Assembly: GCA_029571985.1 (NCBI GenBank)
Contig: JAKQVC010000254.1
Location: 1-44,042, forward strand
DNA: 44,042 nt
Direction: 5' to 3'
Source of the DNA: Bacteroidota bacterium
Lineage (GTDB): Bacteria > Bacteroidota > Bacteroidia > Chitinophagales > BACL12
The notes beneath the pieces are model-generated. The model worked only from the letters and a program-made list of their open reading frames with translations, searched no databases and was not told where the DNA came from. A program made the position numbers and the translations under genes. Shown here piece by piece: positions 15,312 through 40,209 of the stretch; position 1 is the first letter of the stretch; each line of letters opens with the position of its first letter.

Positions 15312-15901
15312 AATTATGTTCAATAAATCTATATCTTTATTCCTTTCGGTAAACCTCAAAGTGTTTAATAGCCGCATTCACAGGAGATTATAATACATTA
15401 AATATTTAGCAATCATACTTGACGCAAAAAAGTATTATTGTGTAATCCATATTGTTGATTCTGGGGTTTATTCAGTTTGCTGTTTGTTTGGATTAAACTA
15501 ATCGTGCGATTTGGCAATTGAACAAACCGCACTTATACAAATATACATAATAAAGAAATAAATTCCAGGAGGAGGGTTTTTAGTGATAATTTGGAATTGC
15601 ATAATGCACGGAATTATTGTGGTGGCCGCCTCCACCTGACTTCAACTTGAAAATGACATGCCAGAGCGATTGGACTGGTCGAGCACCTTGGGTTAGGGTT
15701 TAACAATGTCATGGCTTGTGACTATAATGGGGGTTTTCGATGGGCATTGATAATTGCTGGTAGAAAATTGCATCCATATGTCACGCAAGGGATGGAAGGC
15801 ACATCTGTCCGGATTGGCGATGTTTTGCGGATTTAACTTCAAAAAGCGGACCGAAGTTCTTTTTCTATGACCCGAACCATAGAATATTTTTCCATCGTGC
15901 T
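15312..15901. other. 590-base gap with no intact gene
   Basis: This stretch lies between a minus-strand T9SS gene and a plus-strand broken GxxExxY gene. All frames are short and interrupted. The last 35 bases or so may contain the displaced N-terminus of the GxxExxY gene in another frame (ATG at 15867 reading MTRTIEYFSIV). The rest may be decayed sequence. No RNA gene or clear hairpin was recognised. Confidence 0.45.
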
Positions 15902-16243
15902 ATGATAGTGCATGGGTTTTTGGGGAATGGATTTCCTGAATTAATTTATCAGAGAGCATTAGCAATTAGGTCTCGGATGGTGTGAATGCACTTTAACCGT
16001 GAATTTGAAATAGATGTGGTTTATCGTGATGAACACATCGGTAATGGGCTCGTTGATTTTCTTGTAGAAGATTTGATTTCAGTAGAACTGAAAGCACGAC
16101 CGGTAATGGAAGACCTCCACATTGCTCAAGCCATCAATTACCTGAAAGCATACAACCTTAAAGTTGCCATCCGCATCAACTTCGGTGAACCCAGCCTCCA
16201 CTTCAATCGCCTCGCAATCAAAAAATTCAATCCCAAGCCATGA
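15902..16243 (+). pseudogene. GxxExxY (PDDEXK_3-like) protein gene interrupted by an in-frame TGA
   Basis: From ATG 15902 the frame reads VHGFLGNGFPELIYQRALAI, which contains the family's name motif G-x-x-E-x-x-Y (GFPELIY). It then hits TGA at 15983-15985 where the family usually has Gly. It resumes in the same frame at ATG 15986 with FNREFEIDVVYRDEHIGNGLVDFLVEDLISVELKA and INFGEPSLHFNRLAIKK, the family's C-terminus with its D-x-x-V-E-x-K nuclease-like core. A GGA-to-TGA change is enough to explain the stop. The usual 30-40 N-terminal residues upstream of VHGFLG are not in frame. Family function is unknown; a PD-(D/E)XK fold is predicted. An 85-residue product from 15986 is possible but would lack the signature motif. 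Confidence 0.82.
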
Positions 16244-29567: not shown

Positions 29568-30104
29568 ATGAAAAACACATTTGTACTCGGATTTGCGGGT
29601 CTAACCCTGTTTCTGTCATCCTGTACGACTCTTTTGAGCCCGTATACATCTGCTACGCAATCACAAACGAATTTTGATGAAACACAATTAAAGCAGGTGC
29701 AGTTTTATTTGCATGGAGATATTGTTTTGAACCGCGAACTGGCGGCAAGCGAAACGGAAATCACCAGTGGCGAGATTAAAATTGTAGATGGCAGGAAAGT
29801 AGAACAAGTGCTCATTAAATCAGGTACGCCAGGCATTATTATCCAGGCTGAAAACCGGGATACGTTTTTGGTGAGTTTCGATGCGGATGGCAGTTTCTTG
29901 CGTTTTGGTGCCAATAGCGATTACGGTGGACGTTACACCTTAATGGCTAAATCTTGGGATGGGCGCTCAGGTATCGTAGATTATGCTGGTCGCGAGTGGA
30001 AAAGCACACCTGAAAGCATTTATGCTTACCTCGAAGTGAATATGGAGAAAATTAATAATACCACAGTGAATACGAAGGAAGCCGGTGGTAGAACTATTGA
30101 ATGA
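29568..30104 (+). CDS. Lipoprotein of unknown function
   Basis: A 178-residue protein with a lipoprotein signal, lipobox LSSC, acylated Cys19. The mature region has alternating strands (QVQFYLHGDIVLNRE, IIIQAENRDTFLVSFD, RYTLMAKSWDGRSGIVDYAGREW), suggesting a small beta barrel or sandwich. I do not recognise a named family. The gene follows the flavin oxidase by 51 bases on the same strand and ends the plus-strand run that began with the HerA-like gene. No function is indicated. Confidence 0.8.
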   Translation: MKNTFVLGFAGLTLFLSSCTTLLSPYTSATQSQTNFDETQLKQVQFYLHGDIVLNRELAASETEITSGEIKIVDGRKVEQVLIKSGTPGIIIQAENRDTFLVSFDADGSFLRFGANSDYGGRYTLMAKSWDGRSGIVDYAGREWKSTPESIYAYLEVNMEKINNTTVNTKEAGGRTIE

Positions 30105-30373
30105 TGACCAGGCTGATAATTGGCTTTGGACCTTCAGGTAAATCAATGATATGCCTAGGCCTTCGGAATCTATGATGAAACCATTTACGCGAGGCTTATT
30201 TAACGTGAAATCATTTTGATCAGTTAACCTTTGATTAATAGGTAGGGAATAAGTAAATGGCTGCTCAGTTAATGAAGCCCTTATTAAGATATTTTTTAAT
30301 GGTTTAATAGTTTATACTAGAAATAAGACATTCATTCTATTAAATGGATTTCATTTTCGTAGGGTTGAAAAGT

Positions 30374-31285
30374 CTAAAATAATATTTTGGCCGACTTTAC
30401 TATGTGTCCATTCACCCTCAACCTGGTGATATAAGTAGCTGGCGGTAAGTCTAGCGGTATCTGATTAAAGTGGTTGGTTATGCCTTTTGTAAATACCATA
30501 TTACCCTGCACGTCAAAAACATCCAGAAATACCCCAGCTAATGTGTCAACATTGGCATACAAAAACAAAACATTATTGTGCGCATAAAGAGTAAAATTAC
30601 TTTCGATTAAGGGTTCTGGGTCGCTAAACGTAGCTCCGGCTAAAATGGACTTCTCTGGTTCAGTTTCGTAGGCAAAATCATGAATGATTATTCCCTCTGC
30701 AGAATCTATTATTGAGCACCTGATCCAACCATAATGCATATTGTATTCACTGTCTTCAAAGTAAATGCCCAGAAATTTTTCATCAGCACCAGGTGCCCAA
30801 TATCCTTCTATGTCAAATAATCGGGGCATACTACTGGCATCAGTATATGTTTTTTTGGCCATGCTTTGATATAACCAAGATGGGTTAAAATTAAGGTCAG
30901 GGGAGATAGATGCACCCGATTCTAGCGCAAAGGGGTAATAGTATACGAAAATCCCAATTCCATAGTTATAATCAAAGTAGGTTTGTGCTGCTATTCGATT
31001 GTTCCCTAAATATGCCGGGCCAACCCATTGTACAAATAAATCAAAATAATCCATAGGTTCTCCATATGAATTATATGACCTGAACTGCTTGTTCCAGTTA
31101 AGAAAATGAAAATCATTTATTCCGTCTTCATTAAGATCTAGTAAAATCGATGAATTAAATTCATTGAGTACTATATCCGGGTTGATGTCTGTATATAGTA
31201 CTTCTGACTGCACTTTTCTCGTTAGCAAGAAGCTGCTTGCAAGGAGTGAGTATTGTACCAATTTTTTATTATGGTACATTGTCAT
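30374..31285 (-). CDS. Secreted protein with probable T9SS sorting domain, translationally coupled to the glycosidase-like pseudogene
   Basis: A 303-residue protein whose ATG (31283-31285) overlaps the TGA of the upstream gene as ATGA. A second ATG lies two codons in. The N-terminus has a hydrophobic signal-like segment (QYSLLASSFLLTRKVQSE). LLDLNEDGINDFHF (about residue 48) resembles D-x-N-x-D-G calcium loops found in surface proteins. The last 70 or so residues (NNVLFLYANVDTLAGVFLDV...GHIVKSAKILF) look like a divergent T9SS type A domain. No enzyme motif was seen. The gene is intact although its upstream partner is broken, so it may no longer be translated efficiently. Confidence 0.78.
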   Translation of the reverse strand: MTMYHNKKLVQYSLLASSFLLTRKVQSEVLYTDINPDIVLNEFNSSILLDLNEDGINDFHFLNWNKQFRSYNSYGEPMDYFDLFVQWVGPAYLGNNRIAAQTYFDYNYGIGIFVYYYPFALESGASISPDLNFNPSWLYQSMAKKTYTDASSMPRLFDIEGYWAPGADEKFLGIYFEDSEYNMHYGWIRCSIIDSAEGIIIHDFAYETEPEKSILAGATFSDPEPLIESNFTLYAHNNVLFLYANVDTLAGVFLDVFDVQGNMVFTKGITNHFNQIPLDLPPATYITRLRVNGHIVKSAKILF

Positions 31286-33909
31286 AGTTTTATAAATGAT
31301 TCGGAAAACGAAATGGATTTTCCTGAAATTGTAAATAAATAAAGCCCACTAGGTAAATAACTAATGTCAATTGTTTGCGAAAAATCTGGCGTTGTTTGCG
31401 AAATTACTTTTCCAGTCATATCTGAAATAGTAATTAATTCAAATTGTGAAGAATAATGACTAATGTATTTAATCTGTTCGGTTGCTGGATTAGGGTATAA
31501 GCTGAGTTCGGAGTTTTCATTATGGGTTGAAGTTTTTGGTGTTGCATAAACTGCGCTTACAGGTACTTTGTAATAACCTACTGAGTACGCCGGCAATGAA
31601 ATGCATGTCTCATTAATATTAGGCATAGTGTAGCAACTCGGAATATTGGTAAAGGTACGAATAGCATCTGGATTTTCAGCTCTGATTTCAAATGGGTGCC
31701 ACAAATCTGGAGTGCCATGACAGTCATAGCAATAGTTAAGATCGTATTTGGTGCTCAAACCTGATGTGCTATATGGCTGAAGTGCATCAATGCAATTTAT
31801 GGTTGCCTCACCAAATTGGACGCCAATTGGCGCTCCGTAAATAGGGTGGTCAGGGTACAATGCTTGTAGATTTTCTCCGTTCAAGATTTGATGTTACTCG
31901 ACAGAAAGTATATTTGAATAATAAACATAAATAGTATCGTGCAATCGTGTTATAAACGTGCTTACCTGCAAGTTTGGATTATTCCAAGAGATATATTGGT
32001 TGTTGCGAATGTATTTGAGATCTTGCCTTGAAATTGGAGATAGGTGCTTCATAACGTAGTAATTCGTGCGTCGTAGGTAAACACGTTGTGATTCACTTAC
32101 ATCAGGTATCAACCCATGTCTTTTCCTATCTGCGCAATCAGCATCTAACAACAAAGTATTTTGATATTCAGTGCCGTGGTAGTTATGAAAATGCGCATAA
32201 GTGAAAAAATTGCTTCTGTATTCACCTTCATAATTTATTTTTACATTTTGTAACCACCATTCCTGCAGGATAAAGGCGCTTACAAAAGAATTATTAAATA
32301 TATTCATGCGTTCCATTACATTAGTTTCTGTGGGTATTGGTGTATATTCATCCAATATGTTCCATTCAGTTGTCCATAGTTCTTTTCTGTTAGCGGAGTT
32401 AAGATTAAAATTCAATATGGAATTGTGATAGTCGTACGATTCTAGAAACCGAGTTTTAATGAAATCTCTAAAGTTTCCATATAAAGGAATGTCAGATTTT
32501 CCTAGGATGCCATCGAAAGCAGGTTGCAAATTAGTGTCATAGCTTGAGTAATCAAAAATTGGGCATGAATAGAAATCATTATACATCATTGCAATATCTT
32601 GATAATTGTCTTTAGCAGCATAATAGGGGTGAATGATTATTGCATCAAATGCAAATGGTCCACCGGGCTCAGCCTTTGCGTTATAATAGCTTCGAAGTTG
32701 AGCGTTCCAATCATCCTCTGGATCTTCAAGGCCTTCAAGTTCGCTAGATTCCCTTTATGCATAGCCGAGGGCGTCAATATTCCTTGCTGGTATGCCAATT
32801 TTACAAGAAACAGTAGGGTCCAATTTAAAGGCATCTATATAGTTGTGGTCAATTTTCATTCCTGACGAAAATACATGATTTGCATATTCATCCCACCATT
32901 CTGAATCTGATTCGCCACCATTTATGTATGTCCAGTAATCAATAAAAGATTTCATTCCTAACATGTCAGTGCTCGATTTATAGTAATTTTCATTTCCAAT
33001 TTCCACACCTACAACGTTCAGATTAGCAACGGCATTTTCTGATTGATTTTCTAAAAAGGTAACAATGTTTTTACACCTAGTTGCAGTTTCACTAAAAATA
33101 TTCAAGCATAAGATGATGTCAACAGTTAGCCCAGGGTTTAGAGTTTGAATGTCATTTACAAGACTAACAAATTGCTCGATGGCTGATGGTTCACCTGCCG
33201 GTATCTCCTCTTGATTCGACCATTTTCTATAGAAACCTTGAAAGTCTTCCTTAAAATTATCAGCATTCATCCATAATACACAATTGTCACAAATGTAATC
33301 AGCAGTAAGGTCACTCAAAACCGATGATATATCCGCAGCTGTAACAATATCTATCTTATTATCTGTTACGTCATAAAAACGAATAATTTCTTCAATATCA
33401 TATCCATAACCCTTTATGGGGTCGAGACCTGGAACACCATCAATGTTTCTATAAGGGCGTAAGTGCATAAATTTGGTTGTCCCACCTGCTGGGAATCGAA
33501 GCGATTTTGGTGCTAGTTCTATAAGCCATTGAATTGCGTCGTCGCTAGATTCTTCATAATAGGGTATTGCGCCAGGACTAAACAGGCTTCCAATATGTAT
33601 GCCAAAAAGCCCATCATTTACTTCCTTAGATATGGACCCTAGAATTATGCCTGTTTCCATGGGGTGATTGAAAACCTTTGAATAGGTGGTATTATTATTC
33701 GTATATGGAATTTTGCCTAGTATTCTTAAATCTATTGAATCCACGGCTAAAGTGTCATAGTCCAAACTAAAAATGCTATCTAACCCATTTACATAGTCAA
33801 AAAGCGTATCGGCTTTTATTATATATGAATCAAGCTCGCTCGAGTCTATTTGGCAATATACTTTAGAAGAAGTGCATATAAAGATTATGCAAAGGGAGGG
33901 AATTAGCAA
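31282..33909 (-). pseudogene. Glycoside-hydrolase-like (clan GH-A-type) T9SS gene with two in-frame TAA stops
   Basis: One continuous frame of 875 codons runs from 33909 to 31282, interrupted only by TAA at 32755-32757 and TAA at 31894-31896. The stretches between the stops translate sensibly (RESSELEGLEDPEDDWN, FAFDAIIIHPYYAAKDNY). It starts with a signal peptide ending VYCQ. RFPAGG (138-143), GVEIGNENYY (Glu307), HPYY (427-430) and LWTTEWN (Glu515) fit the sugar-binding, acid/base and nucleophile positions of clan GH-A enzymes such as GH51/GH79. The final part ends in a T9SS tail (LSLYPNPATEQI). The first codon would be TTG: deleting one C near 33914 would give ATG and the N-terminus MRRLLIPSLC, a possible third lesion. 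The family assignment is inference; the stops are direct observation. Confidence 0.8.
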
Positions 33910-33953
33910 TCTTCGGCATGAGTTGAAACAATTTACAGTTATACCCCTAATAA

Positions 33954-34016
33954 GGGCACGTAGCTCAGATGCTTGATGCTTGATGCTTGATGCTTGATGC
34001 TTTCATATGGTTAGAG
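33954..34016 (+). repeat. Heptamer tandem repeat inside a tRNA-like 5' fragment
   Basis: Five exact copies of GATGCTT occupy 33968-34002. Directly before them is GGGCACGTAGCTCAGATG (33954-33971), which looks like the acceptor and D-arm start of a bacterial tRNA. TGGTTAGAG, typical of the other side of a D-loop, follows at 34008-34016. No anticodon or T-arm follows, so this is not a functional tRNA. Confidence 0.7.
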
Positions 34017-34102
34017 ATTGAGCATCTAAATTAATCAATTTTTTATTATTAAGCATTTTGACACATACATTGTCAATATTGCATTCGTTAGGCTGATAGG
34101 AA

Positions 34103-35179
34103 TTACTTAAAGAGAACCTTGATATAAAACGCATACCACGCAAACCAATAAGCCGTAAAACCATTCATGGGAGTCAATCGACTCCCTTTTTTATTGCCGG
34201 AAATGCAGTATCCGAATACATCATATACATTTCCTTCAGCATCACGCATGATACCGGGCATTTGACCTGTATTTGGCGTGAAGATTAAATTTGAAGGATT
34301 CTGAAAAGCAGTAATATAATTATCTCGTTCACTGCCCACTACGATAATGTTTTTTCCGAAGGCGGTATCCGAAAGAATGCGCAGGCCATTCTTAAAATTG
34401 GCAAATCGATAGCAACGAGCTTCATCGCCGGAAACAATGCCGTAAAGCCTTTCTTTTGGATGTAAGGTGTCATTTTCCTGATCAACTTCAAAATAGATTT
34501 CTTTATCCTCGCGATAGGTGCCGTATGGATAACTGCTATAATCGCGTTGCATACCGGTTTCGGTGCTTACCACTTTGCTGTCTGGGAACATGGTTTTCCA
34601 GGTTGCCCAGGAGGTTTCTATTACCTGAAAAGTTTGTGCTTTTTTTTCATACAATTCTCCATTCACACATACTTGTTTCATCTGACTCCATGCCGAACGT
34701 GTTGTGCGATCGTACGGAATCACATTACTGTTATACAATAAACCGGAAACGCCGAATTCTGTTAGTTTACCGTTGATGGTTCTGTTCCATGCCATGCCTG
34801 ATCCTGTGAGCGGACAATAATTTATCGACAGATAGGTGTCGTCCATAAAATCATTTACGATTTCATGCCAGTTTAAAATATTGTGCGGATATGCATGTAA
34901 CTCATCACCCATTCTTACACCGATAATTAAATCATCGTCTTGCAGAAAGTCAACACGGTCTGCTGATATAAATACTGGATCGTCAATGGATTTGATACAA
35001 TCCAGACGTTCGCACCCATCCTCTACCTTTTCAAGGTCAATGAGCCATTCGTCATATACTTTTCGCTCACCGGAAGACTGATTGTTCACTTCCTGAGTGC
35101 CGGCTTCTTCATGTTTGCAACTTACAGATAATCCAAACCATGTACCTGCCAGCAGGAAAATGTAATTTCGCCCTTTCAT
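34103..35179 (-). CDS. DUF3179-domain lipoprotein
   Basis: A 358-residue protein with lipobox SVSC (Cys21), so predicted to be membrane-anchored on the periplasmic side. The DUF3179 blocks are present: LIIGVRMGDELHAYPHNILNWHEIVND, SINYCPLTGSGMAWNR, FGVSGLLYNSNVIPYDR, RSAWSQM and ATWKTMFPDSKVVS. The Cys in NYCPLTG and the nearby His are conserved in the family, but no activity is known. The start at 35179 lies 7 bases after a TACCTTTG box (35187-35194), so the mRNA is almost leaderless. It is divergent from the nitroreductase, with 20 bases between starts. Confidence 0.92.
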   Translation of the reverse strand: MKGRNYIFLLAGTWFGLSVSCKHEEAGTQEVNNQSSGERKVYDEWLIDLEKVEDGCERLDCIKSIDDPVFISADRVDFLQDDDLIIGVRMGDELHAYPHNILNWHEIVNDFMDDTYLSINYCPLTGSGMAWNRTINGKLTEFGVSGLLYNSNVIPYDRTTRSAWSQMKQVCVNGELYEKKAQTFQVIETSWATWKTMFPDSKVVSTETGMQRDYSSYPYGTYREDKEIYFEVDQENDTLHPKERLYGIVSGDEARCYRFANFKNGLRILSDTAFGKNIIVVGSERDNYITAFQNPSNLIFTPNTGQMPGIMRDAEGNVYDVFGYCISGNKKGSRLTPMNGFTAYWFAWYAFYIKVLFK

Positions 35180-39908: not shown

Positions 39909-40064
39909 GCTATTGAATTTTAGGTAAGCTGATTGGTAGTGGGTAGTGGGTATTGAGTAGTGGGACAATGCAAGGATTTTAGTGGAGCATGAGATTATTC
40001 TCTCGGTTATTAAAATTCGAATGAAAAGACTTTATTCTAAAGCCGCAGGCCTCATTGTATTTGT

Positions 40065-40126
40065 CTCACCACTCACCACTCATCACTCACCACTCACCAC
40101 TCACCACTCACCACTCACCACTCACC
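40065..40126. repeat. CTCACCA heptamer tandem array, larger block
   Basis: About nine copies of a 7-base unit (CTCACCA), one copy with ATC in place of ACC. It lies in the gene-free region upstream of the PLP enzyme. Confidence 0.95.
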
Positions 40127-40183: not shown

Positions 40184-40209
40184 CTCACCACTCACCACTC
40201 ACCACTCAC
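40184..40209. repeat. CTCACCA heptamer tandem array, smaller block
   Basis: Nearly four copies of the same 7-base unit, ending 6 bases before the -7 box of the PLP enzyme gene. It covers the space where a -33 element would lie. Confidence 0.9.

Follow-up and report, generated by a model that had tools for sequence, protein, structure and literature searches.

Why should a long gene for what looks like a secreted glycosidase contain two in-frame stop codons, with no frameshift between them? The question is raised by an interrupted gene on the minus strand of a stretch of 44,042 nucleotides from a Bacteroidota bacterium of the Chitinophagales (assembly GCA_029571985.1, contig JAKQVC010000254.1), the whole of which we call the window. 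Our answer is that the gene has probably undergone recent decay by nonsense mutation, as a member of a two-gene islet that is gained and lost.

Translated along the minus strand from 33909 to 31282, the gene consists of 875 codons and a terminal TGA, with two internal TAA codons (TAA 1 and TAA 2, Table 1) and no frameshift between them. Over the same stretch, stops number 58 and 98 in the two other frames of this strand and 50, 60 and 58 in those of the opposite strand; chance is therefore excluded, and 31282-33909 is one coding frame. A preliminary description of the window had already joined the three open reading frames (ORFs) concerned into one, and in this it was right. TAA 1 falls between two glutamates, E307 in a GNE motif and E515 in a TEWN motif, and TAA 2 falls after the predicted barrel and upstream of a C-terminal sorting domain (tail) of the type IX secretion system (T9SS). 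That TAA 2 parts the catalytic region from the tail, as had been claimed, is correct, but about 130 residues of non-tail sequence common to relatives also lie downstream of it. The same description had named beforehand, as an observation that would speak against it, homologues that end or start naturally at the stops. The alignment revealed no such ends: among 11 aligned relatives, the position of TAA 1 is occupied by F in 8, by Y and V in one each and by a gap in one, and that of TAA 2 by Q in 9 and by T and N in one each. Since relatives have sense residues at both positions, neither TAA is the natural end of a gene, and this candidate explanation was rejected. Genome-wide recoding of TAA, which had been thought unlikely, was rejected as well: TAA is the terminator of 21 of the 31 window ORFs taken as genes, and all three types of stop occur in the enzyme family.

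This family has other interrupted members. In the window's own genome (G000; C-numbers denote contigs, and the window copy is C99), where all candidates were scored, there are two near-full copies, C99 itself and C23, the latter with three in-frame stops (TAA, TAG and TAA). A genome of the same genus, G001, has six. Three of these (C94, C90 and C43) are intact; C19 has an open frame, but its ATG is shifted by one base against the frame of C94, a sister with 89% protein identity; C188 has a TAG at the W of TEWN; and C9 has one in-frame TGA and lacks the companion gene, which is the second gene of the islet. In-frame stops are thus present in 4 of the 8 near-full copies of the two genomes, seven stops in all (4 TAA, 2 TAG and 1 TGA). 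Two relics were also found: on C245 of G000, only the C-terminal part of the enzyme is left, before an intact companion, and on C43 of G001 (L038 2570-5017) a tandem second unit has an enzyme remnant without its middle. Stop-free copies exist elsewhere, two in G004 and one each in KLAP29 and G320. The family is rare: it was detected in 3 of 149 relatives, with the best 6 candidates scored per genome, and in 2 of 395 genomes of the class, with the best 2 scored per genome (the window's genome is counted in both). A further search of G001, G004 and G320 with all candidates scored added only a contig-edge fragment, at 55-1299 of C154 in G001, which covers 476-874 of the query and has no stop.

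Other families of the same genomes are clean. No stop was found in 52 matches to TonB receptors or in 13 matches to ACR pumps in G000, G001 and G004. When only G000 and G001 are considered, none of the 41 TonB and ACR matches has a stop, against the 4 of 8 near-full enzyme copies; with these two families as controls, the Fisher test gives p values of 0.003 for G000 alone and 0.0003 for both genomes, the latter rising, by arithmetic, to about 0.0005 once C154 is counted as a ninth copy. Stops are likewise absent from the 31 companion matches listed for the two genomes (best 15 candidates per genome). With the control families clean and TAA in ordinary use, the stops are therefore not explained by recoding or by poor quality overall, and the TonB, ACR and companion controls make random assembly error unlikely as their sole cause.

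These counts bear on the alternative that survives best, according to which the stops come from errors in the assembly or consensus, or from a strain mixture in which intact alleles also occur. Both assemblies are fragmented (282 contigs in G000, about 240 in G001), coverage of four G001 contigs with copies of the family is 8.8-13.5x, and the part of PMC11017572 available to us often traces internal-stop pseudogenes in assemblies to errors of assembly, which depend on coverage, platform and assembler. However, errors should strike all genes, and here they would have spared every TonB, ACR and listed companion match while striking half of the enzyme copies; moreover, the large deletions and the shifted start of other copies are not substitution errors. 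We consider this alternative unlikely. The preliminary description had left the choice between decay, error and mixture open; with the stops concentrated in one family and in two metagenome-assembled genomes, decay is now favoured over the other two.

The islet itself lies between two convergent genes. In the sequence ATGA, the start codon of the companion overlaps with the stop codon that terminates the interrupted gene; no ORF of at least 100 amino acids other than these two genes occurs within the islet, and its sequence is AT-rich (GC content 0.363, against 0.425 ± 0.024 for 25 window genes). Of the 8 near-full copies in G000 and G001, 7 have behind them a companion some 300 amino acids long, in several cases with a stop/start overlap. 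In G001, the two genes that flank the window islet are almost directly joined, and those that flank the C23 unit are 159 bases apart (on C182). Conversely, the flanks of the C188, C9 and C19 sites of G001 are close together in G000, with no enzyme match between them. The gene is thus missing from the other genome at all five testable sites; C94 and C43 (one flank without G000 counterpart) and C90 (which fills a short contig) were left out of this comparison. At the site that matches the window, the islet may have been gained here or lost in G001. The family context, i.e. the three stops of C23, the two-gene islet and its absence from the matching site of the nearest genome, could not be seen from the window alone, to which the preliminary description was limited.

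Table 1. Positions of the interrupted gene, its islet and the genes on either side
Feature	Position	Strand	Remarks
Interrupted GH-A-like T9SS gene	31282..33909	-	read-through frame, 875 codons; open from 34002
In-frame TAA 1	32755..32757	-	codon 385
In-frame TAA 2	31894..31896	-	codon 672
Predicted (beta/alpha)8 catalytic region, GH51/GH79-like	32215..33636	-	low-confidence model, mean pLDDT 59.4
T9SS type A C-terminal sorting domain	31288..31500	-	TIGR04183 residues 132-202, PF18962 132-197, third fragment
7-bp tandem repeat x5	33968..34002	-	directly after out-of-frame ATG (~34006-34004)
Companion gene, intact, 303 aa	30374..31285	-	C-terminal T9SS-tail match below cut-off
Islet, two-gene unit between convergent genes	30105..34102		absent from matching G001 site
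Flanking lipoprotein-like gene	29568..30104	+	label from sequence appearance; counterpart adjoins DUF3179 gene, G001:C204
Flanking DUF3179 gene	34103..35179	-	68% identical in G001:C204

As to the enzyme that has been interrupted, the T9SS tail, which the preliminary description had recognized, scores 48.7 bits with TIGR04183 (cut-off 23) and 45.9 bits with PF18962 (cut-off 27), but because of TAA 2 it is not joined to the catalytic part in one product. The catalytic part matched no Pfam or NCBIfam family when the fragments were scanned (Pfam E up to 1), no match to GH51 or to any other catalytic-domain Pfam family (GH, glycoside hydrolase) was found in six relatives scanned (E up to 0.1), and a sequence search of solved structures with an intact relative gave three weak matches, among which only that to the T9SS tail makes sense. 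The motifs GVEIGNENYY, HPYY and LWTTEWN, earlier described as of GH-A type, are indeed found in the translation, and we take GNE and TE(W/Y)N to resemble the acid/base and nucleophile sites of GH-A enzymes. Both E307 and E515 are invariant in the two alignments; by analogy with clan GH-A, in which the catalytic pair of glutamates lies at the ends of strands 4 and 7, the first is the presumed acid/base and the second the presumed nucleophile.

AlphaFold models built from 8 sequences have a mean predicted local distance difference test score (pLDDT) of 50.9 for the whole protein and 59.4 for the barrel. The fold matches consistently indicate clan GH-A and rank as GH51 arabinofuranosidases, then heparanase/beta-glucuronidase (GH79, with structures 5la4, 5bwi and 7psh), GH44 and GH39. 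With the GH51 structure 3ug3_A, the barrel model reaches a Z of 15.1, with a root mean square deviation (rmsd) of 3.8 over 268 residues, and with the three GH79-type structures a Z of about 12-13. For the whole model, Foldseek returned 23 matches below E 0.001, headed by GH51 1pz3 (E 4.9e-6); the alignment to GH51 structures extends over 98-783, yet with an rmsd of about 11-12. The barrel model alone gave no Foldseek match below E 0.001. This low-confidence model thus lends moderate support to a place in clan GH-A, with its (beta/alpha)8 barrel, which we regard as likely; GH51 appears nearest and GH79 next, but they are about 2 Z units apart, hence no firm choice can be made. The enzyme would share with the GH51 alpha-L-arabinofuranosidases (3ug3, 2c7f, 1pz3) the predicted barrel and the GNE and TE(W/Y)N motifs, and differs from them by its T9SS tail, an identity of only 15% and the lack of a GH51 Pfam match. 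With the GH79-type enzymes it would have the fold class in common, but no match at the sequence level. Like other T9SS type A cargo it has a sorting domain above the cut-off, with the difference that here TAA 2 separates that domain from the rest of the enzyme with its catalytic region.

In the explanation that we favour, decay by nonsense mutation, the ancestor would have been a full-length secreted clan GH-A glycosidase with a signal peptide, a TIM barrel, a beta domain and a T9SS tail, encoded together with a smaller companion in a two-gene unit present at scattered sites in the genus. Two point mutations would then have turned sense codons into TAA, and the N-terminal start may be damaged as well. 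A fragment translated from any upstream start would retain the presumed acid/base glutamate and lose both the presumed nucleophile and the sorting tail, so that no active, exported enzyme would be expected. Sister copies, too, were disrupted, through deletions and through stops of their own. More generally, units would be gained and lost, would diverge under purifying selection while used, with C19 and C94 (omega 0.136) as a case in point, and would be inactivated by nonsense mutations or deletions when not needed. What the data show are the stops, the paralogues, the sense residues of homologues and the absence from matching sites; the loss of activity, its recency, the order of events and the direction of change at a site, be it gain or loss, are our inference. 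The window copy violates none of the 31 columns that are invariant across all other aligned copies, which suggests that its inactivation is recent or weakly felt.

Several results weigh against this explanation. First, stop-bearing and intact copies overlap in their conserved-column counts, made on 8-of-8 columns with the distant copies L010, L012 and L026 left out: 9.0% for C99, 10.1% for C23, 6.6% for C188 and 22.0% for C9, against 16.5% for C43, 9.0% for KLAP29, 2.7% for C90, 2.7% for C19 and 1.4% for C94. Similarly, a relative-rate comparison of C23 with its sister is significant (p<0.01) with 3 of 7 outgroups and not significant with the other 4. Second, in simulations of neutral evolution one stop took a median of 16-20 substitutions to appear, two stops took 37-46 and three took 57-82 (5-95% ranges of 8-133 for two stops and 17-184 for three). 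With indels taken at 1 per 10 substitutions, about 150 substitutions and about 10 frameshifts would thus be expected in the four stop-bearing copies, and no frameshift is found inside the frames; any such shift, of which there may be one or two, lies at a start (C19 and perhaps C99). Third, 3 of the 7 stops, one of each type, fall within six consensus columns, in a loop before the conserved WN, and the three paralogues that carry them share no more than 33% identity with one another. The chance of such a cluster is 0.005 for six columns and rises to 0.03-0.10 if windows of 16-30 columns are allowed, the test being post hoc in either case. Finally, errors or polymorphism, although unlikely, may lie behind the stops.

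Some of these results are what one would expect if the in-frame stops were tolerated or even used, low readthrough yielding a little full-length enzyme in a short-lived down-turn of expression: the four stop-bearing frames have no internal frameshift, no invariant column is violated in the window copy, and three stops of three types lie in one loop. There is also a precedent in PMC7918605, which, in the part available to us, reports bacterial in-frame stops with a ratio of nonsynonymous to synonymous substitution rates (dN/dS) below 1, mostly short-lived. The likeness extends to the conserved frame and to the presence of all three types of stop; the difference is that this part of the study focuses on orthologous stops common to relatives, and here we have independent lesions in one family, up to three per gene. 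However, as all three stop codons are present, no single suppressor can explain them, and the sites do not look tolerant: the TAAs of the window stand at positions that are mostly F or Q, and the stop of C188 replaces W/Y beside the presumed nucleophile. Moreover, with two or three stops one after the other, the yield of full-length product would presumably be negligible. Use of the stops is therefore quite unlikely in our view.

Very unlikely, to our mind, is a third possibility, that the islet spreads within this Chitinophagales genus while the enzyme is repeatedly switched off, by stops or deletions, and the companion kept, in something other than neutral decay. If it were true, we would be facing an arms race at the cell surface or a contingency pattern, in which one loop would be a favoured place for stops and which might include occasional repair or readthrough. 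As a separate matter, we asked whether the enzyme is lost selectively while the companion is spared. Among the 9 units with a companion that were read, 6 enzymes and no companion are broken, but the idea was set aside: the enzyme is three times longer than the companion, which puts the chance of such a count at about 0.1-0.2 by arithmetic, and C9 has no companion at all.

The least probable idea is that stop-bearing copies are silent donors, from which gene conversion feeds variation into an expressed copy: the mosaic of C19 and C94 and the C43 tandem (both described below) would suit it, but it is highly improbable: all remaining near-full pairs of G000 and G001 have at most 55% protein identity, too little for conversion to be frequent; no in-frame stop occurs in either C19 or C94; a simple tandem duplication of recent date would also explain the C43 pattern; and no single expression site was identified. 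Between C19 and C94 (L009, L011), nucleotide identity ranges from 74 to 99% among 50-codon windows, with an overall omega of 0.136, and the resulting mosaic is possibly a sign of gene conversion. In the C43 tandem, the two companions show no difference over 897 nt, and identity across the 1247 nt of the repeat is 98.6%; for the neighbouring N-terminal GH remnant it is only 71%.

Decay of this kind is in itself ordinary. Yet it shows that stops can gather in one scattered family with control families of the same genomes looking clean, and a per-genome count of pseudogenes would miss this. The more interesting by-products of this mostly ordinary explanation are the scattered two-gene islet and an unnamed enzyme family, which is rare and lacks a Pfam model for its catalytic part; on the strength of its likely place in clan GH-A, it is a candidate new CAZy family. 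In the parts of the literature on T9SS pseudogenes and heptamer repeats that were available to us, nothing on this enzyme family was found.

The family of the companion is far wider than that of the enzyme: it is present in 70 of the 149 relatives, with at least 16 matches in G000 and at least 15 in G001, and some of its members come after different T9SS-tailed genes. They also form runs, of three genes in G000 (C129, 36563-39589) and of four in G001 (C134, 6177-10009); in the C129 stretch, the enzyme profile matched the T9SS tail only. Nothing was found for a plasmid or phage origin: searches of plasmids with an intact relative of the enzyme, and of PHROG with the companion and that relative, gave no match (a collection of phage records was not searched). 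Directly upstream of the family copy on C43 of G001, a gene (L038 7750-8880) resembles a tyrosine recombinase by appearance. In the window islet, a 69-codon open stretch without ATG is found behind the companion (30105-30311, minus strand).

The start of the interrupted gene calls for separate comment. Its frame is open further upstream, from 34002, which would make 906 codons. The TTG at 33909 is the first ATG, GTG or TTG past the upstream stop, and the ATGs nearby, at about 34006 and about 33919, are both out of frame; besides the two TAAs, the N-terminus may thus be broken too. Right behind the first of these ATGs stands the 7-bp tandem repeat, the 19-base core of which is unique in the window's genome. 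This location, and a unit length that is not a multiple of 3, would suit an on/off switch, for which the repeat is a candidate; against this, its core is unique, no comparable array was seen by eye at the starts of other copies of the family, and other 7-bp arrays of the window stand between genes. These intergenic arrays, with the same unit length, are at 39935-39964, 40065-40126 and 40184-40209; those of the unit CTCACCA comprise 8.9 and 3.7 copies, and another 4.3 copies.

Two further broken genes were noticed. In the window, a gene of the PDDEXK_3 family (15764-16240, plus strand) has an in-frame TGA at 15983-15985 (PF13366, 62.6 bits, second fragment), and its N-terminal part also looks damaged. 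On C243 of G000, a companion (L054 6149-7025) is split into two frames, and frameshifts therefore do occur in the window's genome.

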